Assembly (NCBI RefSeq): GCF_004005855.1
Contig: NZ_SACL01000015.1
Coordinates: 1-64,000, forward strand
DNA length: 64,000 bases
Direction of reading: 5' to 3'
DNA from: Rhodovarius crocodyli
GTDB taxonomy: Bacteria > Pseudomonadota > Alphaproteobacteria > Acetobacterales > Acetobacteraceae
Positions within the stretch are counted from its first letter, which is position 1; the number at the start of each line of letters is the position of its first letter. The notes beneath the pieces are model-generated. The model was given only the letters and a program-made list of their open reading frames with translations, searched no databases and was not told the DNA's origin. Shown piece by piece: positions 4,253-11,814 of the stretch. Both the position numbers and the translations under genes were made by a program.

Positions 4253-4660
4253 CTAACGGCCCGCCGGCTTCAGGCTCTCGCCGCGATGGAAGGCGATGCC
4301 CATGCGGAAGCTCTGCGCGATGCGGTGCGCCATCCCGACCACATGCTCCGCGACCTCAGGCTTGAGCGTCCTGGCGGCGGCCGCGCTGAACAGCGCCAGC
4401 CACCGCTCGAAATGAGTCTCGGAAATATCCTGCAGGCGCAGATGGGCCTGGAGCGGCCGCCCATCATAGCGGGATGTCCGCAGCAGGGCGGAGGACCAGA
4501 AGGCGCAGAGGGTTTCGAGGTGCTCCGGCCAGCGCTCTTCCGGGATCTCGCGCCTGAACACGGGGCCGAGAAGATCGTCCGACCTGACAGCATCATAGAA
4601 GCCGTGCACGAGCCGCCGGATGCCGTCTTCGTCCAATGGTGGGGCGGGGGGCTCTGTCAT
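4253..4660 (-). CDS. Group III truncated haemoglobin
   Basis: A 135-residue globin starting at the ATG before TEPPAPPLDED. It has the group III (P-type) signature: HGFYDAVRSDDLLGPVF near the N-terminus, W44PEHLE, the proximal-histidine region PLQAHLRL (H73), then ETHFERWLALF. Such proteins bind haem and O2 or NO in the cytoplasm. The gene is divergent from an iron-uptake-like locus, and a Fur-box-like palindrome lies about 120 bp upstream of its start, so iron-linked expression is plausible but inferred. Confidence 0.88.
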   Translation of the reverse strand: MTEPPAPPLDEDGIRRLVHGFYDAVRSDDLLGPVFRREIPEERWPEHLETLCAFWSSALLRTSRYDGRPLQAHLRLQDISETHFERWLALFSAAAARTLKPEVAEHVVGMAHRIAQSFRMGIAFHRGESLKPAGR

Positions 4661-4780
4661 GACGCGAGTGTAGCCCGGTTCCTGGCCCTCGACGACCATG
4701 GGGCGTCCGGCCTCGACGCCGCCGGGGAGGGCCATGCGGGGCATATAAGGGAAAGGCGCAGACAGCCTTGACCTGCCTAA

Positions 4781-4805
4781 ATTGCGTATGACTCGCAGTC
4801 GCAAT
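4781..4805. promoter_or_regulatory. Candidate Fur box upstream of the FmdE-like operon
   Basis: TGCGTATGACTCGCA at 4783-4797 is an imperfect 7-1-7 dyad, close to TGCGAATCATTCGCA, the core of the perfect palindrome at 8944-8960 in the same locus. An outer pair ATTGCG (4781-4786) and CGCAAT (4800-4805) overlaps it. It sits between the divergent haemoglobin gene and the FmdE-like gene, 36 bp before the latter. Fur, or another iron-responsive factor using this motif, is the likely binder; this is inference from the two matching sites. Confidence 0.5.
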
Positions 4806-4841
4806 AAACTGCCCGCCTGCCGCGATTGAAAGCCATCACCC

Positions 4842-5357
4842 TTGTCCATCCCGTCGATCACCATCCTCAGCGAGGGCAAGCCCCTCCTGCTGCCCTATCG
4901 GGCCGCCGCCGCCTATCACGGTCATTCGGCGCTCGCGATGCTGGCCCTGACCTTCCAGGGGCTGCGCGGCGCGCTGACGCGCCTCTCACCCGCTGCACCC
5001 GTCGACCGCGCGGCTCTCACCGTCACCAGCGGCCATCCCGGCCCGGGCGTGCGTGACGCCATCGAATTCGTCACCCGTGCCGTCACGCGCGGCGCCTATA
5101 CCGTAGACCGCAGCCTGCCCGAGGCCCGGGTGAACCCGCATGCGGCCATCTCCTACAGCTTCCGCCTGCATTGGCAGGATCGCACGCTGGTCGCCGCCCT
5201 GCGTGAGGGGGTGCTGCCCGACCGCTTCTACGCATTGGTCGCCATGCCGAAGGACCAGCACAGCCCGGCCACCCTGGCCGAGGCCGATGCACTCAAGAGC
5301 AGCATCGCAGAGCGCGTTCTGCTGGAGGAACCCGAAAGCCTCTACGCCTATGCCTAG
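4842..5357 (+). CDS. FmdE-like protein lacking the family cysteines
   Basis: A 171-residue soluble protein. The segment YHGHSALAMLALTFQGLR aligns by eye with the FHGHxCPGLxLGYR motif of FmdE-family proteins, keeping HGH but with SAL in place of the CPG; the later DAIEFVTRAVTRGAYTVDR resembles the family's DAIQVxTGxTxGxGN region. The cysteines used by typical FmdE proteins are missing. The start is uncertain: TTG at 4842 is the best available, with a weak ribosome site. The next gene starts inside its last codons (8-bp overlap), so the products are probably made together. It heads a three-gene set convergent with a TonB receptor. Metal or cofactor handling is a reasonable guess only. Confidence 0.6.
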   Translation: MSIPSITILSEGKPLLLPYRAAAAYHGHSALAMLALTFQGLRGALTRLSPAAPVDRAALTVTSGHPGPGVRDAIEFVTRAVTRGAYTVDRSLPEARVNPHAAISYSFRLHWQDRTLVAALREGVLPDRFYALVAMPKDQHSPATLAEADALKSSIAERVLLEEPESLYAYA

Positions 5358-5949
5358 TATCCTGATGCTGACCTACGGCCACGCGGCGGAGACAGGTGCC
5401 GCATTGCGACGCTTCGCCGCGCCGGGCCGGGATGTGGTGCCGCGCGACCAGTACGCGCTGGATGAGGAGCCTCTGGAGCACCACGCCGCGCTGGTGATCG
5501 GCATGCATGCCGACCAGCGACACCTCGCGGCCCGCGCCGGGCGCCTGGCGGGATATCTGGCCCAGGGCGGCACCATCGCTGCCAGCGGCCACCTGGCCTA
5601 TCCCTTCCTGCCCGATGTCTCCGGCTTCCAGCCGTTGCCGACCGGCCATCTGGACGATCTGCGCATCCATCGTGAGGCCGCACACCCGATCTGGGCCGGG
5701 GTGAGCGAGCAGGATCTCACCTTCAGGCGCGGTGTCGCCGGCTTCTACGGCCGGGGCTGGCATATACCGCCACCCCGCGCGCGGGTGCTGCACAGCGTAG
5801 GCCGGGAGCACCGGCCGCTCGACATCATGTGGCGCCATGGGAAGGGCAGGGTGCTGCTGCACGGCGGCAACGACCTCTGGAGCTTCGGCGCCGGCGACAT
5901 CGCCCGCAACCTGTTCGATTGGCTGCTCGCCGGGCCGGAGGTGCTCTGA
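5350..5949 (+). CDS. Uncharacterised protein, possible class I glutamine-amidotransferase-like fold
   Basis: A 199-residue protein with no signal peptide. It begins with a Rossmann-like strand (SILMLTYGH), has LVIGMHADQRHLAARAGRL and LAQGGTIAASGHLA, and ends with HGKGRVLLHGGNDLWSFG, a pattern reminiscent of ThuA/GATase1-like domains, where a late strand carries a Gly-rich turn. No nucleophilic cysteine elbow is visible, so amidase activity is unlikely. It overlaps both neighbours (8 bp upstream, ATGA downstream), showing tight translational coupling. I do not recognise a named family; fold assignment is tentative. Confidence 0.6.
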   Translation: MPSILMLTYGHAAETGAALRRFAAPGRDVVPRDQYALDEEPLEHHAALVIGMHADQRHLAARAGRLAGYLAQGGTIAASGHLAYPFLPDVSGFQPLPTGHLDDLRIHREAAHPIWAGVSEQDLTFRRGVAGFYGRGWHIPPPRARVLHSVGREHRPLDIMWRHGKGRVLLHGGNDLWSFGAGDIARNLFDWLLAGPEVL

Positions 5950-6593
5950 TGCTCGCTGTTCTCGATGCCGGCAGCTACTACCATCACCACGCCATCCACG
6001 GCGCGCCCTATCGCCACCTGTTCGACCGCGTGATCTACACGCCCGATCTGGACCGCGCCGCGCTGGAGGGCGTTTCGGTGCTGCTGGTGGCCGACCGCAA
6101 CAACCCCGTGCTGCTGCGCCGGCACGCCGATCTCATCCTCGGCCATTGGCGCCGCGGCGGCACGCTGGTGGTGCTGGGTGAGAATGAGGCCGAGAGCTGG
6201 GTGCCCGGTGTCCGCTGGTCCCCGCGCCCCACCAATTTCTGGTGGTGGCTGGAGCCGGGTGCCAAGCCCGAACACCAGTATCCCCGCCCAGAACACGAGT
6301 TCTTCCGTCATGTGCCGCCCGAGGACACGGTCTGGCACTATCACGGCGTGCTGCAGCCACCCCCGGGCGCCGAGGCGCTGATCACCGTGCCGCCCGACCC
6401 GGAGGGCCGGGACCAGGGCGGGGCGCTGCTGTATGAGGACCGTGCCTCGGAGGCCGGGCGGCTGCTGATCGCGACGCTTGATCCGTTCTATCACCACGGC
6501 AGCCGCTTCATGCCCAGCACCACGCGGTTCCTGGACGGCTTCCTGCCCTGGATGAACCGGCTGGCGAGGCAGGAAGCGGTGGCGGAAGGCTAG
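5949..6593 (+). CDS. Uncharacterised His/Trp-rich protein, possibly related to its upstream neighbour
   Basis: A 214-residue soluble protein. It starts LAVLDAGSYYHHHAIHGAPY, continues with VSVLLVADRNNPVLLRRHAD and HWRRGGTLVVLGENEAE, and later has ATLDPFYHHGSRFMP. The alternation of strands and Gly-rich turns resembles a GATase1/ThuA-like fold, like the preceding gene, so the two may be paralogues, but no catalytic cysteine is seen. The HHH, FWWW and YHH clusters could form a metal or haem site; that is speculation. It is last in the three-gene operon and converges on the TonB receptor gene across a strong hairpin. Confidence 0.6.
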   Translation: MLAVLDAGSYYHHHAIHGAPYRHLFDRVIYTPDLDRAALEGVSVLLVADRNNPVLLRRHADLILGHWRRGGTLVVLGENEAESWVPGVRWSPRPTNFWWWLEPGAKPEHQYPRPEHEFFRHVPPEDTVWHYHGVLQPPPGAEALITVPPDPEGRDQGGALLYEDRASEAGRLLIATLDPFYHHGSRFMPSTTRFLDGFLPWMNRLARQEAVAEG

Positions 6594-6611
6594 GCGACCG
6601 CTGCTCCGGAC

Positions 6612-6636
6612 CACCCGGGGGCAAGGCCCCCGGGTG
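6612..6636. terminator. Bidirectional GC-rich hairpin between convergent genes
   Basis: Perfect 11-bp arms CACCCGGGGGC (6612-6622) and GCCCCCGGGTG (6626-6636) with a 3-nt loop. It lies between the end of the small-protein operon and the end of the TonB receptor gene. There is no U-tract on either side, so it may stall or stabilise transcripts rather than act as a textbook intrinsic terminator. Confidence 0.6.
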
Positions 6637-6642
6637 TCACCA

Positions 6643-8862
6643 TCAGAATCGGTTGCGCAACCCGATCAGGAAGGTACGCCCGGGTTCCAGCAGCGGGTTG
6701 GTGTCGCTCTGCCGGTAATTCATGTTCGCGATCGTCGCGGCGCTGCGATAGGACGCATCGAACAGGTTGTTCGCCGACAGCGACAGGGTGGTGTTGCCCA
6801 GCCGCGGAGAGACCAGCCGGTCCAGCCGGAATTCCGCCGACAGGTTCATCACCGCATAGCCCGTGGTCTTGTATTCGCTGGCCGTGTCGATGCGCGTTTT
6901 GCCGGCCGCCCAGTTCAGCGTGCCGGTCAGGGCGATGCCCTGGTCCGCCAGAACATATTGCAGGCCGGCCCGCCCGCCGAAGGGCATGATCTGCGCCACC
7001 GGACGGTGGGTGGTCACATTGTCCGCGCGCAGCACCGTGACATTGCCGAAGAAGTTCAGCGCGGGGTTCAGCTGCCACCGCCAGTCGCCCTCGAAGCCCG
7101 TCATGTGCACCTGGCCGACATTCTGGCGCTGCGTCGCCAGATAGCCGTTGTAGGTGGTGCTGACATTGGCCAGGAAGTTCTCGAAGCGGCTGTGGAACAT
7201 GGTGGCGCGGAAGGTGGCGTTCGGGAAATGCACCCGGAAGCCGCCCTCGAAATTCACCCCGCGCTCAGGCCGCAGGTCGGGGTTCGGGATGGTGTAGGTT
7301 GAGCCTGACAACCCCTGCGAGAACAGCTCCGACGGGACCGGATACCGGAAGGAGTTGTTGATGTTGCCGATGAATTCGATGAGGCGGATCGGGCGGTAGT
7401 TCACGCCGATGGCCCCCGTCACGGCGGTGGCCGTGGTGTCCTGCGCCGCACGGAAGGCCGGCAGCAGGTTGGCCGAGGACAGGCCCGTCAGCGACGGGTT
7501 GGAGTAGACATAATCGAAGCGGCCGGCGGCACTCAGCGTCAGCTCGCGCGTCGCGTCCCATTCGGTGGTGACGAAGGCGCCCGCATTCACCTGGTCCACC
7601 GCAGGGCCCGTCTGCCGGCGGGCGGTGGGCGTGATGCTCAGCAGGTCGCCGGCGCTGTTGTAGCGGTTGACGGCGCTGGAACTGTCGGAGCCCGGGCGCT
7701 GCTCGCTGATCACATCCAGGCCCAGGGTGGTGCGCGTCGGCCCCCAGGGGATCATGCCCGACACCCGCCCGCCCCACATCACCGGGCCCATGACATAGCT
7801 GTTGGAAGTGGTGATCTGGGAGGCCGCGCGGGTGCTGGTGACGAGCTTGGTGTAGAACTCGTTGCGGTAGATGCTGGCCTCGATGCTGCGGAACAGGCCG
7901 TGGTCGAAGGTGCCGCTATAGGCGATGCGGCCTGAATAGAGGTTCAGCACCGCCTCGCGCAGGGTCGCGGCGGGGGCAGCCGGCTGGTTGCTGCCGCGGC
8001 CGTCGGTCACGCTGGTGACGCGCAGGCCCAGCTCCACCCGCTGGTTGGCGCTCGGCGAATAGCCGATGTTGAGGCCGAGGCTGCCCGTCTCGTAGTCGCT
8101 GTTGCGCACGCGGCCGGCCCCTGAGCGGTAGTCGTCGCTGCGGCGCCCGGTGATGCTGACGCGCGCGTCGAAGCCCGAGCCCGCCGCCTCGATGCCGATG
8201 CCGCCATCCACCCGGTTCCCGTTCGTGCCGTACAGGATGAAGCTGTCGCCGCCGGTGATGGAAAAGCCCGGCTGGAAGGCGTTGCCGCGCGGCCGGCGGG
8301 TGACGACGTTGACCAGCCCGCCCAGCGAATCGCTGCCATAGGCGAAGGAGGCGGCCCCGCGGATCACCTCGATCCGCTCGATCTCCTCGGGCGAGAGCAG
8401 CATCAACTGCAAGGTGTTGCGGCCGCGTGCGCGGTCCCCATCGATGTACATCGGCACGCGGAAGTCATTGGTGTTGAAGCCGCGCAGGAAGATGGTGCCG
8501 TTGATGCCGCCGACGCGGTTGATCGACACGCCCGGCACGCTTTCCAGCAGCTCCAGCATGCCCGGCGCGTTGCTGCGCTCGATATCCGCGCGGTCGATCA
8601 CGCTGGCGGAGGTGCTGGGCAGGAGCGGGATGAGCGGCGCGGGCGGCACGGCGCCCAGCGGGCGCAATTCACCCAGCGCGGCGCCGGCGCGCACATTCAC
8701 CTCGTCGATGCGAATGGCGGGGATGGTCTGACCTGGCTCTGTCCGGCTGGGCTCTGTTTGGCTGGGCGTGGCGGTGGCGGGGGTGGTTGCCGTGGTCTGG
8801 GCCAGTGCCGGGGCCGCGGAAAGCGCGGTCATCAGGCAGAGCAAGGTCGGACTGCGTGGCAT
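6643..8862 (-). CDS. TonB-dependent outer membrane receptor
   Basis: A 739-residue protein. The start is the ATG before PRSPTLLCLMTALSAAPALAQ, a clear signal peptide. A Thr/Pro/Glu-rich linker follows, then DEVNVRAG as a possible TonB box region. The plug domain shows ASVIDRADIERSNAPGMLELL, GTIFLRGFNTNDFRV, IERIEVIRGAASFAYGSDS and GGLVNVVTRRP, followed by a roughly 550-residue beta-barrel ending in the typical terminal Phe (LIGLRNRF). It would bring a metal chelate or similar ligand into the periplasm for the divergent ABC importer at 9.0-11.8 kb. A perfect Fur-like palindrome lies 82 bp upstream. The ligand (siderophore, haem, cobamide) cannot be fixed from sequence. Confidence 0.93.
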   Translation of the reverse strand: MPRSPTLLCLMTALSAAPALAQTTATTPATATPSQTEPSRTEPGQTIPAIRIDEVNVRAGAALGELRPLGAVPPAPLIPLLPSTSASVIDRADIERSNAPGMLELLESVPGVSINRVGGINGTIFLRGFNTNDFRVPMYIDGDRARGRNTLQLMLLSPEEIERIEVIRGAASFAYGSDSLGGLVNVVTRRPRGNAFQPGFSITGGDSFILYGTNGNRVDGGIGIEAAGSGFDARVSITGRRSDDYRSGAGRVRNSDYETGSLGLNIGYSPSANQRVELGLRVTSVTDGRGSNQPAAPAATLREAVLNLYSGRIAYSGTFDHGLFRSIEASIYRNEFYTKLVTSTRAASQITTSNSYVMGPVMWGGRVSGMIPWGPTRTTLGLDVISEQRPGSDSSSAVNRYNSAGDLLSITPTARRQTGPAVDQVNAGAFVTTEWDATRELTLSAAGRFDYVYSNPSLTGLSSANLLPAFRAAQDTTATAVTGAIGVNYRPIRLIEFIGNINNSFRYPVPSELFSQGLSGSTYTIPNPDLRPERGVNFEGGFRVHFPNATFRATMFHSRFENFLANVSTTYNGYLATQRQNVGQVHMTGFEGDWRWQLNPALNFFGNVTVLRADNVTTHRPVAQIMPFGGRAGLQYVLADQGIALTGTLNWAAGKTRIDTASEYKTTGYAVMNLSAEFRLDRLVSPRLGNTTLSLSANNLFDASYRSAATIANMNYRQSDTNPLLEPGRTFLIGLRNRF

Positions 8863-8943
8863 GCGGTGTGCCTTCTGAGAGATTTCACGGCACCGCTTGC
8901 GGCAGTGCCGCATCGCGTATATGTCCCATGTCATTCGATGACA

Positions 8944-8960
8944 ATGCGAATCATTCGCAT
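8944..8960. promoter_or_regulatory. Perfect Fur-box-like palindrome
   Basis: ATGCGAATCATTCGCAT is an exact 17-bp palindrome (8-1-8). It matches the GATAATGATAATCATTATC-type Fur pattern at the central AATCATT and the flanking bases. It sits between the divergent receptor (start 8862) and binding protein (start 9003) genes, where one site could control both. A related site stands before the FmdE-like operon. Confidence 0.75.
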
Positions 8961-9002
8961 CAAAACCATGTAACAGCATAAATCCCCGGCAGGGAGACAT
9001 GA

Positions 9003-10079
9003 ATGCCACACAGGCACCGCGGACACCGCCCGGCCGCCCTCCTCCTGGCGGCGTCGCTGGCCGGCGCCTTGCCTGCCGGGGCGGCGGAATTCCTCGATCA
9101 GCGGGGCGTCGCGCACCGGATCGACCGTCCGGTGGAACGCGTCGTCACCCTGCCCATGCCGCTGCCCTCGACCTACATGGCGATCGACGGGACGGAGCGG
9201 CATGTGGTGGGGATGAACCCCAGCTCCGGCGCCGCGCTGCGGGACGGTATCCTGGCGCGCATCTTTCCCCGCGCGCGTGCCATCGCCACCGACATCACGC
9301 GCGGCGCGGGCTTCACGCCGAACATCGAAGCCATCCTCGCGCTCAGGCCCGACGCGGTCTTCCAATGGGCCTCCCAGGGGCCGGAGCTGCTGGAAGTGCT
9401 GGACCGGGTGGGGCTGCGCACCATCGGCATCACCTGCTGCAGCCAGGCCGATTTCGCGGCCTATACCGGCTTCATGGGGGAGTTGTCGGGCAGGCAGCCG
9501 CGCGCGGCCGAACTGCTGCGCCGCCAGGATGCCGTGCGCGCCCGCCTGGCGGCCGCGACCGAAGCCATTCCCGACGCGCGGCGCCCGCGCGTGGCCTATG
9601 TCGGCCGCTACACCGACAGCATGCGCATCGCGGGCCCCGGCACCTACAACGACATGTATCTGCGCCTGGCGGGCGGGCGGAACGCGGCCACCTCGGCGCC
9701 CGCCGCCGTCACGCTGGAACAGGTGCTGGCCTGGGATCCGGAAGTGATCCTGCTGGGCAATTTCGACACCGCCATGCCGGCGGATGTCTATGCCGATCCG
9801 CGTTGGGCGGGGCTCGCCGCCGTGCGCAGCCGGCGCGTCTACCGCATGCCGCTCGGCGGCTATCGGTGGGATCCGCCCAGCCATGAATCGGCGCTGACCT
9901 GGATCTGGCTGGCGGAGCTGCTGCAGCCGGGGGCCTCCGGGTTCGACCTGCGGGCGGAAATGCGGGAGTGGTTCCGCTTCCTCTATGGCCATGAACTGGC
10001 CGAGGACGACATCGACGCCATCCTGTTCGCGGGCCCGAACCAGGGTGCCGCCGGCTATGACAGGTTGCTGCGCCGATGA
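9003..10079 (+). CDS. ABC transporter periplasmic substrate-binding protein (TroA/BtuF-like)
   Basis: A 358-residue protein with a signal peptide of about 28 residues ending PAGAA. The mature part has the two-lobed helical-backbone pattern: DRPVERVVTLPMPLPSTYMAIDG at the start, ALRPDAVFQWASQGPELLEVLDRVGL for the first lobe, and VAYVGRYTDSMRI and LAWDPEVILLGNFDTAM for the second. The ATG is preceded by AGGGAG. It overlaps the permease gene by 4 bp. Such proteins capture chelated iron, haem or cobamides. ITCCSQ is an unusual adjacent cysteine pair. Ligand identity is unknown. Confidence 0.88.
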   Translation: MPHRHRGHRPAALLLAASLAGALPAGAAEFLDQRGVAHRIDRPVERVVTLPMPLPSTYMAIDGTERHVVGMNPSSGAALRDGILARIFPRARAIATDITRGAGFTPNIEAILALRPDAVFQWASQGPELLEVLDRVGLRTIGITCCSQADFAAYTGFMGELSGRQPRAAELLRRQDAVRARLAAATEAIPDARRPRVAYVGRYTDSMRIAGPGTYNDMYLRLAGGRNAATSAPAAVTLEQVLAWDPEVILLGNFDTAMPADVYADPRWAGLAAVRSRRVYRMPLGGYRWDPPSHESALTWIWLAELLQPGASGFDLRAEMREWFRFLYGHELAEDDIDAILFAGPNQGAAGYDRLLRR

Positions 10080-11083
10080 AGGTCTCCGTGCTGTGGAGCG
10101 GGCTGGTGCTGCTGCTGGCGGCGGTGCTGCTCCTCTCTCTGGCGGCGGGGCGCTATCCCGTGCCGATCGGCCATGTGGCGGCGATACTGGCGGCGCCGGT
10201 GTTCGACATCACGCCCTCCTGGTCGCCCGCCGAGGCGCTGGTGGTGCGCACCGTGCGCCTGCCGCGTCTGCTGACGGCGGGGCTGGCGGGGGCGGGGCTG
10301 GCCCTGTGCGGCGCGGTGCTGCAGGGCATCTTCCGCAACCCGCTGGTGGGGCCGCAGACCATCGGCGTTTCCTCCGGCGCGGCGCTCGGGGGTGTCGTGG
10401 CCATCATGTTGCTGGGCTTCGGCTGGCCGGTGGCGGGCGGTGCCTTCCTGGGGGCGGTGCTGGCGCTGCTGGCGGTGCTGGCGATCCATGACGGGCGCGG
10501 CCTGTCGGCGGTGCTGACGCTGGTGCTGGCGGGGGTGGTGGTCAGTGCCTTCTGCGGCGCCATGGTCAGCTTCGCCACCTATGTGGCGGACCCCGAGACC
10601 AAGTTGCCCGGGTTGGTCTTCTGGCTGATGGGCAGCTTCGCCACGGCCACCTGGCCCAAGCTGGGTCTGCTGGCGCTGTGCAGCCTGCCGGCCGGGGCGC
10701 TGATGCTGGCCATGCGCTGGCGCATCAACATCCTCTCGCTGGGTGACGAGGAGGCCCGCAGCCTGGGCGTGCACCCCGCCCGCGACAGGCTGATCCTGTT
10801 CGGGGCCATCTGCGCCCTGGTGGCGGCCCAGGTCTCGGTCAGCGGCGCCATCGGCTGGGTGGGGTTGGTCATTCCCAACCTGTGCCGGATCGCGATGGGC
10901 GCGGATCATCGCCGCCTGCTTCCGGCCTCCGCCCTGTTGGGTGCCAGCTTCCTGATGCTGGCCGACACGCTGGCCCGCAGCGTCACCGCGGCCGAGGTGC
11001 CGGTGGGCATCGTCACCGCCCTGGTGGGCACGCCGGTCTTTGCCTGGCTGCTGCACAGGGCCGCCGGGGGGCGGCAGGCATGA
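10076..11083 (+). CDS. FecCD-family ABC transporter permease
   Basis: A 335-residue inner-membrane protein with about nine to ten membrane segments. FecCD hallmarks are present: VRLPRLLTAGLAGAGLALCGAVLQ near the N-terminus, RNPLVGPQTIGVSSGAALG, and the late GAIGWVGLVIPNLCRIAMGADHR coupling region. It starts within the stop of the binding protein gene (ATGA) and its own stop overlaps the ATPase start, giving a three-gene operon. Imports iron chelates, haem or cobalamin-type ligands. Confidence 0.92.
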   Translation: MKVSVLWSGLVLLLAAVLLLSLAAGRYPVPIGHVAAILAAPVFDITPSWSPAEALVVRTVRLPRLLTAGLAGAGLALCGAVLQGIFRNPLVGPQTIGVSSGAALGGVVAIMLLGFGWPVAGGAFLGAVLALLAVLAIHDGRGLSAVLTLVLAGVVVSAFCGAMVSFATYVADPETKLPGLVFWLMGSFATATWPKLGLLALCSLPAGALMLAMRWRINILSLGDEEARSLGVHPARDRLILFGAICALVAAQVSVSGAIGWVGLVIPNLCRIAMGADHRRLLPASALLGASFLMLADTLARSVTAAEVPVGIVTALVGTPVFAWLLHRAAGGRQA

Positions 11084-11814
11084 TCGCGGCAGAGAATGGG
11101 GGCCATGGCTACCGGCCCGGCCAATGGCTGTTCCGCCACCTGGATTTCCGCGTGGCGCCGGGCGAGGTGATGGCGGTGCTGGGCCCCAACGGGCGCGGCA
11201 AGACCACCCTGCTGCGGGGTCTCTGCGGCACTCTGGCCTGGCGGGAGGGCAGGGTGCGCCTGGGCGGCGCGCTGGGCTATGTGCCCCAGGCCCTGGCCAC
11301 CGAAACCGGCTACACGGCGCTGGAGATGGTGCTGATGGGCCGCAGCCGCTTCCATGGCCGCTTCGGCACGCCTGGCCGTGCCGATGTGGCGCGCGCGGAG
11401 GCCTGCCTGGATGAGGTGGGGCTTGCAGATGTCGCCCGCAGCCGCTTCGACCGGCTCAGCGGGGGGCAGCGCCAGCTGGCGCTGCTGGCGCGCGCCCTGG
11501 CCACGGATTGCGCCGCGCTGGTGCTGGATGAGCCCGCCTCGGCGCTTGATCTCGCCAACCAGGGCGTGATGCTGCGGCTGCTGCGCCGCCTGGCGGCCGA
11601 AAAGGGGTTGGCGATCCTGTTCACCACTCACCATCCCGACCATGCGCTGGCCATCGCCCATCAGGCGCTGTTGATGCTGCCGGCCGGGGAACATCTGCAT
11701 GCCCCCCGCGACGAGGCGCTGAGCGAGGCCAATCTGCAGCGTCTGTACGGGGTGCCGATCCGGCGTGTCGCGTTCGAGGGTGGAGAGACCCTGGTGCCGA
11801 TGCACAGTCTGTAA
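11080..11814 (+). CDS. ABC transporter ATP-binding protein (FecE/BtuD type)
   Basis: A 244-residue ATPase starting at the ATG that overlaps the permease stop. Walker A is GPNGRGKTT, with Arg where many members have Ser/Ala; the signature is LSGGQRQLALLARAL; Walker B is ALVLDEPAS; the H-loop is FTTHHPDHA. It powers the FecCD-type permease upstream. An intrinsic terminator follows 26 bp after the stop, closing the operon. Confidence 0.92.
   Translation: MIAAENGGHGYRPGQWLFRHLDFRVAPGEVMAVLGPNGRGKTTLLRGLCGTLAWREGRVRLGGALGYVPQALATETGYTALEMVLMGRSRFHGRFGTPGRADVARAEACLDEVGLADVARSRFDRLSGGQRQLALLARALATDCAALVLDEPASALDLANQGVMLRLLRRLAAEKGLAILFTTHHPDHALAIAHQALLMLPAGEHLHAPRDEALSEANLQRLYGVPIRRVAFEGGETLVPMHSL

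Follow-up and report, generated by a model that had tools for sequence, protein, structure and literature searches.

What do three small genes without a recognised family do beside an iron-type uptake system? This question is raised by a locus of the alphaproteobacterium Rhodovarius crocodyli, within positions 1 to 64,000 of contig NZ_SACL01000015.1 (this whole stretch of 64,000 nucleotides is called the window below). The genes, termed g1, g2 and g3, overlap by 8 bp (g1/g2) and 1 bp (g2/g3) in the window's list of open reading frames (ORFs), and g3 ends 49 bp from a convergent gene for a TonB-dependent receptor. The receptor gene (reverse strand) and an ATP-binding cassette (ABC) importer operon (forward strand), comprising a substrate-binding protein (SBP), a FecCD permease and an ATPase, have a common promoter with a perfect Fur-like palindrome, ATGCGAATCATTCGCAT. 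A sequence-only reading had proposed this arrangement, with the three coupled genes converging on the receptor, and the coordinates, the Pfam matches and the palindrome bear it out. The g1, g2 and g3 proteins of the window reach no Pfam or NCBIfam cut-off, and no signal peptide was seen in them, as judged by eye. We consider it somewhat probable that the three genes form a transferable cytosolic module, which processes an imported ferric chelate and frees its iron.

Relatives were gathered by scanning genome contigs with g3, the best 80 of 99 being kept, and 87 loci were compared (these 80, L003, five plasmid loci and the window; L numbers denote single loci). Neighbouring genes were called from codon usage with a simple script and grouped into BLAST clusters, whose names were checked against Pfam on single examples. 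Relatives of g3 occur in Alphaproteobacteria, Betaproteobacteria, Bacillota, Actinomycetota and Chloroflexota, and 32 plasmid records match it, two of them haloarchaeal. The distribution is patchy, with one other carrier among 200 genomes drawn from the window organism's family and three others, one a weak match, among 299 drawn from its phylum. Each of the 82 loci compared contains a g2 match as well as g3, the two forming a single ORF in eight of them. g1 is present in 34 of the 87 loci (within 6 kb of g3 in 29), and further loci carry it beyond these. Duplicated g2-g3 pairs were also observed beside a single importer, either divergent or in tandem (two pairs in L070, L072, L064, L078 and L080; three in L016). 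In the annotated plasmid records, g2 and g3 are labelled hypothetical, and a sequence search of the PDB with g1, g2 and g3 profiles and with g3 alone gave nothing credible. No earlier description of the module was found among the literature matches listed, all open-access papers, and the available portions of two papers on iron in Aliivibrio salmonicida (PMC4324432, PMC5511505) name no gene of the module locus.

An ABC importer lies within 6 kb of g3 in 79 of the 87 loci, and four classes can be told apart: (i) FecCD/SBP only (39 loci), (ii) oligopeptide-type only (29), (iii) NMT1/Ssu-type only (six) and (iv) mixed (five). The g2-g3 genes stand in one co-directional run with an importer or ABC ATPase gene in 50 loci and are divergent from an importer in 16, giving 66 of 82; the window does not belong to these 66, its module converging on the receptor. 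Of the 60 loci with full flanks, 53 have an importer gene at up to 5 kb and 18 have one farther out than that, and importer genes made up 0-6% of the genes 7-10 kb away. Furthermore, an annotated ABC importer adjoins the genes in 16 of the 17 plasmid records examined (of 32), the 17th being unannotated. The sequence-only reading had named a location of the three genes mostly away from TonB/ABC genes as a refuting outcome, and with respect to ABC genes this was not observed. TonB receptors proved to be just a Gram-negative addition.

Some loci reproduce the parts of the window closely. In Methylocystis (L113) and Methylosinus (L114), the importer and g1-g2-g3 form one run facing a TonB receptor, with the same parts as the window, and L122, L124 and L125 (which extends L003) have tight six-gene runs of importer, g1, g2 and g3. 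The receptors of L113 and L114 are 44-45% identical to that of the window, followed by L067 (44%, in two pieces) and L004 (42%), both of which also carry g1-g2-g3, while those of L010, L050 and L107 are 32% identical. Other loci pair g2-g3 with different carriers, and four SBP families were recognised by Pfam from one or two examples each (Peripla_BP_2, SBP_bac_5, NMT1 and SBP_bac_6/8). The last of these is found in the haloarchaeon Natribaculum, where an Fbp-like SBP (SBP_bac_6/8), g2, g3, an 'iron ABC transporter permease' and an ATPase stand in a row.

On the g3 tree, the importer type has switched repeatedly. With importers within 4.5 kb labelled as FecCD, oligopeptide or Ssu, at least 10 changes are needed over the 71 of 82 rows that could be labelled (11 mixed or unlabelled rows were left out), and with all six labels 18 changes are needed against a shuffled mean of 37.9. 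The starred branches alone force seven FecCD-label and six oligopeptide-label changes; the exact number is soft because this is a quick tree with 21 open forks.

Several of the alternative importers have distinctive surroundings. In oligopeptide-type operons (L047 10594-14764, L029, L058, L076, L081 and L082), g2-g3 is followed by an FtsE-like ATPase (by eye) with FtsX, then by one or two secreted proteins; that of L047 has no Pfam match and a mature start, by eye, of Ala-His. An OppC-type permease fused to an OppD-type ATPase is encoded at L027 6886-8562, and its cluster recurs across the oligopeptide-type loci. In Romboutsia (L073 5077-8287, reverse strand), nitrogenase-like genes (Oxidored_nitro and the NifH family) lie near g2-g3 and an Ssu-type importer. 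A sulfur-compound cargo was suggested by the NMT1/Ssu importers, by an O-acetylhomoserine sulfhydrylase-like gene (by eye) in L011 and by a Sulf_transp match just below cut-off in L063; it was dropped as inconsistent.

The sites upstream of the module point to iron as the common factor. Sites of Fur, Zur, PerR, IdeR and the Irr-type iron control element (ICE) were sought as consensus strings, and L064, a metagenome-assembled genome (MAG), was assigned to Bacillota by us. A Fur box of at least 13/15 precedes a module gene in 35 of 38 Bacillota loci, the exceptions being L058, L069 and L071. Boxes of this quality occur in 50 of the 89 Bacillota module upstreams and in 20 of the 297 other upstreams (p=1.4e-22), where module upstreams include those of any ABC ATPase cluster member and the threshold was chosen after an initial inspection. 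A DtxR/IdeR box of at least 14/19 occurs in 14 of 20 module upstreams vs 3 of 144 others in 16 Actinomycetota loci (p=3.6e-13); the p-values are overstated because loci within a genus are not independent. At 14/15 or better, the Bacillota counts are 36 of 89 vs 15 of 297. At this threshold none of the 89 module upstreams has a Zur or PerR site or a match to any of four control palindromes (PerR 3 of 297 others), and control by Zur or PerR was therefore dropped. The DtxR/IdeR-positive loci include L054 and L061, both without a listed importer nearby, and a perfect palindrome, TGCGAATGATTCGCA, stands directly before g2 in L125. The iron-responsive sites that had been foreseen are thus strongly enriched upstream of module genes, and the iron link of the module is strong.

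This evidence bears on whether the module serves nickel or cobalt uptake, which we regard as the least probable of the alternatives considered, and highly improbable in itself. Such a role would suit the NicO genes of L006 and L037, the HupE_UreJ_2 genes of L037 and L106, CbiQ in L006 and an SBP_bac_5 protein annotated as nickel-binding in L106. However, Fur and DtxR/IdeR boxes dominate where tested, and a scan of 23 loci at Rfam gathering cut-offs returned tRNAs only. On the latter result, control by a cobalamin, thiamine or nickel-cobalt riboswitch was discarded, and the cobamide limitation offered in the sequence-only reading as an alternative to iron found no support.

In the window's own genome (5.27 Mb), the core palindrome TGCRAATNATTYGCA was found at four sites with at most one mismatch (reversed control 0) and at 15 with at most two (reversed control 1). 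The sole perfect copy of the genome is that at 8945-8959 of the window, between the receptor and SBP genes, and the other window site has two mismatches. Five of the 13 non-window sites are near iron genes, namely FeoB (L095), two TonB receptors (L097, close by, and L093, about 850 bp away) and, at two adjacent sites (L101 and L102), an Fbp-like SBP with a ferritin-family gene after it. At the remaining eight no iron gene was recognised, four of these (L096, L098, L100 and L103) being judged by eye only; the genes include TctC (L092), an outer-membrane efflux gene (L099) and one without a Pfam match (L091). As the genome-wide sites include iron-gene neighbours, TGCRAATNATTYGCA has the behaviour of an iron box here. 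The second window site, proposed earlier as Fur-like, belongs to the same set of 15, and is probably real and predicted to be of Fur type. Its palindromic Fur-type sites place the locus in a predicted Fur regulon. Two further observations concern these palindromes: the 97-bp gap between a globin gene and the divergent g1 contains the second site, and a DUF1826 gene (L090 1800-2579, C4 of the same genome) lies near a one-mismatch copy.

Table 1. Genes and candidate regulatory sites of the uptake locus, in window coordinates.
Feature	Position	Strand	Description	Basis
g1	4842-5357	+	171 amino acids, TTG start, no Cys, predicted FmdE fold	ORF call, predicted structure
g2	5350-5949	+	199 amino acids, predicted class I glutamine amidotransferase (GATase1)-like, no Cys; constant neighbour or fusion partner of g3	
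g3	5949-6593	+	214 amino acids, predicted GATase1-like, no Cys; invariant Trp/His/Asp residues	
TonB-dependent receptor	6643-8862	-	Pfam barrel and plug	
SBP (periplasmic binding protein)	9003-10079	+	Pfam Peripla_BP_2	
FecCD-family permease	10076-11083	+	Pfam FecCD	
ABC ATPase	11080-11814	+	Pfam ABC_tran	
Fur-like site TGCGTATGACTCGCA	4783-4797	.	Two mismatches to TGCRAATNATTYGCA; 44 bp before g1	
Perfect 17-bp palindrome ATGCGAATCATTCGCAT	8944-8960	.	Between receptor and SBP genes	
Bacterial globin gene	4253-4744	-	Pfam Bac_globin, 24.2 bits (cut-off 21)	

The importer and the receptor give partial clues to the cargo. With its FecCD permease, Peripla_BP_2 SBP and ATPase, the window importer is by its Pfam matches of the FecCD siderophore/B12 type, and its cargo is left unnamed because no NCBIfam cut-off was reached among the matches listed. 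The receptor of L085 passes a siderophore-receptor cut-off (363 vs 223.5 bits), and genes for PepSY_TM, DUF3649 and DUF3325 adjoin L114; both are compatible with a siderophore cargo. The best NCBIfam models of the window receptor are those of hemin and hemoglobin receptors, which raises the possibility of heme, or of a related tetrapyrrole, as the cargo, handled or opened by g1-g2-g3 alongside, or in place of, heme oxygenases. This is unlikely in our estimation. A gene for the heme-degrading HmuQ scores above cut-off in L022 and L084, the latter also encoding a true hemin receptor; L044 has a gene in the HmuQ BLAST cluster (by cluster membership only), HemP adjoins L085 and L113, and the invariant residues of g3 described below are rich in Trp and His. 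However, the window receptor scores 233 bits with TIGR01785 (cut-off 316.85), and with those of L004, L010 and L050 it falls below the hemin and hemoglobin cut-offs. The hemin receptor of L084 matches it in part only, at 23%, and genes of the HmuQ cluster occur in just three of the 87 loci, this cluster being the one heme-oxygenase family searched for. In L022 (182-3646), from an alphaproteobacterial MAG, a DUF2325 gene and hmuQ lie between g2 and g3.

A different cargo is suggested by three loci in which an SBP-FecCD-ATPase-g1 operon leads straight into phnG and phnH of carbon-phosphorus lyase (Martelella L087, Labrenzia L105 and Agrobacterium L110), with phnI and phnJ also in L087 and phnI in L110. 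The overlap of g1 with phnG is 26 bp long in both L087 and L110, and in L105 a gap of 34 bp separates the two genes. On this basis, the cargo might be a chelator eaten as food, such as a phosphonate or an aminopolycarboxylate, with g1-g2-g3 beginning its breakdown and iron as a passenger. We think this very unlikely, given that the arrangement is confined to three loci of a single order, that g2-g3 of L110 belong to an adjacent importer set, which has a g1 of its own, and that control in Bacillota and Actinomycetota looks iron-based. The junctions (L087 11716-14254, L105 10704-12245 and L110 12266-14585) nevertheless tie iron-type import physically to phosphonate breakdown.

The folds of the proteins were addressed with predicted structures. 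The AlphaFold model of g1 has a predicted local distance difference test score (pLDDT) of 96.4 and a predicted template-modelling score (pTM) of 0.92, and its top three Foldseek matches are FmdE structures (2glz, E 4e-6; 2gvi, E 6e-5), which assigns the FmdE alpha+beta core fold to the modelled protein. In the Pfam scan, the window g1 did not match the FmdE family PF02663 and the g1 of L114 scored 22.2 bits against a gathering cut-off of 22.9; 18 of 32 g1 rows match at E<=0.1 (best E 4.7e-6). According to a study of this family (PMC2954224), the metal ligands of FmdE are two His and two Cys, and PF02663 genes mostly adjoin metal-ion transporter genes. g1 resembles the family in its fold and in this genomic setting but differs at the metal site: the window protein, which contains no cysteine, lacks both Cys of the His-His-Cys-Cys site (FHGHxC and a second Cys), and in most g1 rows only YHG remains of FHGHxC. 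The first His is kept in 31 of 32 rows and the second is mostly Pro or Asn, and a GPGxRDxxExxTR block is near-invariant. The sequence-only description of g1 as an FmdE-like protein that keeps HGH without the family cysteines was therefore right about the fold and the cysteines; a correction concerns the second His of HGH, which relatives of g1 mostly do not keep. No formylmethanofuran dehydrogenase gene was seen in the annotated regions examined.

For g2 and g3, the model was built for the natural fusion of L026 (pLDDT 86, pTM 0.80) from fusions and g3 rows only, so that the g2 half rests on eight fused rows, one of them truncated. Foldseek matched it to GATase-like structures (3fij, 2a9v and 3rht; E 6e-5 to 1e-3) and also to glycoside-hydrolase chains; template-modelling scores to stand-alone GATase-like chains were moderate, about 0.5 by target, the matching half of the fusion not being reported. 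A GATase1-like fold is thus assigned to g2/g3 at the level of the model. By profile comparison, g2 and g3 are homologous (hhalign, 198 columns aligned, probability 99.5%). Both folds, and the lack of a catalytic Cys, agree with the initial guess, and no known metabolic role emerged. The closest known folds are the class I GATase-like and ThuA-like ones, and ThuA (PF06283) is matched weakly in three of 40 g3 rows (best E 0.0026). The window g2 and g3 differ from these in having no Cys and in motifs of their own, TNFWWWLE (nearly invariant), WHxHG and LDPxxHxGxxFMP. At the position following Gly77 of g3, which we take to be that of the nucleophile, 35 of 40 rows have Glu or Pro. W99, W100, W129, H130, H132, D178 and H182 are identical in all 40 aligned g3 rows, a set kept from an archaeon to Staphylococcus. 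These residues may line one pocket.

A GATase fold without its cysteine nucleophile could also belong to a chaperone, store or cargo sensor, so that g1-g2-g3 would pass on iron or adjust the importer instead of acting as enzymes on the cargo. One LysR gene cluster is present in 11 of the 87 loci, and the FmdE study (PMC2954224) reports that an FmdE protein was once proposed as a chaperone and zinc-finger members as metal sensors. Yet a polar and aromatic set invariant over two domains of life resembles a site for chemistry or a specific ligand, and no Pfam DNA-binding domain was found in g1, g2 or g3. We judge this role improbable, though the least so of the alternatives.

The preferred reading, cytosolic processing of an imported ferric chelate, can be set out as a sequence of steps. 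Under iron scarcity, the TonB receptor, SBP, FecCD permease and ATPase would import a ferric chelate to the cytoplasm. The homologous pseudo-amidotransferase-fold proteins g2 and g3, fused in several lineages, would form one unit whose chelate-binding site would consist of the invariant Trp, His and Asp of g3, and g1, with its FmdE fold, would assist the processing that releases iron. The module would be tied to the cargo and not to the importer, having moved between FecCD, oligopeptide/nickel-type and NMT1/Ssu-type systems, with an Fbp-like one in the archaeon. Action after import is suggested by the iron control, the importers of four SBP families and the lack of a signal peptide by eye, and processing of an imported ferric chelate is favoured because a shared substrate class, and not the importer, stays constant. 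Cytosolic action on the cargo, the g2-g3 unit with one pocket, iron release and its chemistry are what we infer from these data.

Several points weigh against this proposal. No cofactor or redox motif was recognised in the module proteins, which leaves reduction unsupported, and most g1 rows lack three of the four metal ligands known from FmdE. Eight of the 87 loci have no listed importer within 6 kb, and the loci, gathered with the window's g3, are not independent. Fur boxes also occur in the 20 other upstreams of 297 in Bacillota, and the NicO, HupE_UreJ or CbiQ genes of L006, L037 and L106 suggest nickel or cobalt in some systems. Irr-type control was rejected as a candidate, no ICE box being found within one mismatch in 26 alphaproteobacterial stretches (two covering one locus), and iron control in Rhizobiales is unsupported for this reason. 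No biochemistry, expression or mutant data on the module were found.

Known factors for releasing iron offer a comparison. FhuF, siderophore-interacting proteins, Fes-type esterases and IsdG/HmuQ resemble the module in its proposed place after ABC import and in iron control. None of them was found among the 50 Foldseek matches listed for each model (g1 and the fusion). FhuF-type ferric reductases have a Cys-ligated iron-sulfur cluster, and g1, g2 and g3 differ in lacking cysteines for it. As described in one report (PMC12424826), PepSY siderophore reductases of the HiuB/FoxB type are Fur-regulated inner-membrane proteins that help to free iron from siderophores; the module is like them in a proposed accessory role with Fur regulation, and a PepSY_TM gene adjoins L114, but g1-g3 appear, as judged by eye, to be cytosolic.

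Release of iron in the cytosol is a step of a known kind, and the protein set is new for it so far as the literature showed. Among the stages of iron uptake, the exit of iron from its carrier after import is one of the less well understood, and few factors that release iron in the cytosol have been described to our knowledge. Tentatively, and with rather less confidence than in a role in processing as such, we suggest that the three proteins represent a new and widely shared type of complex for processing ferric chelates in the cytosol, in which a heterodimeric pseudo-amidotransferase (having a His/Asp metal-type site and a platform of Trp) is joined by a partner of FmdE fold. It would serve a single chelate class as iron source across four bacterial phyla and haloarchaea, and would have been combined with ABC importers of at least four SBP families. 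Two of the three module proteins have no curated family, and iron-regulator sites accompany the module in three phyla, with statistics in two. The module may thus provide a handle both on a chemistry of iron release that may be new and on a common iron source.

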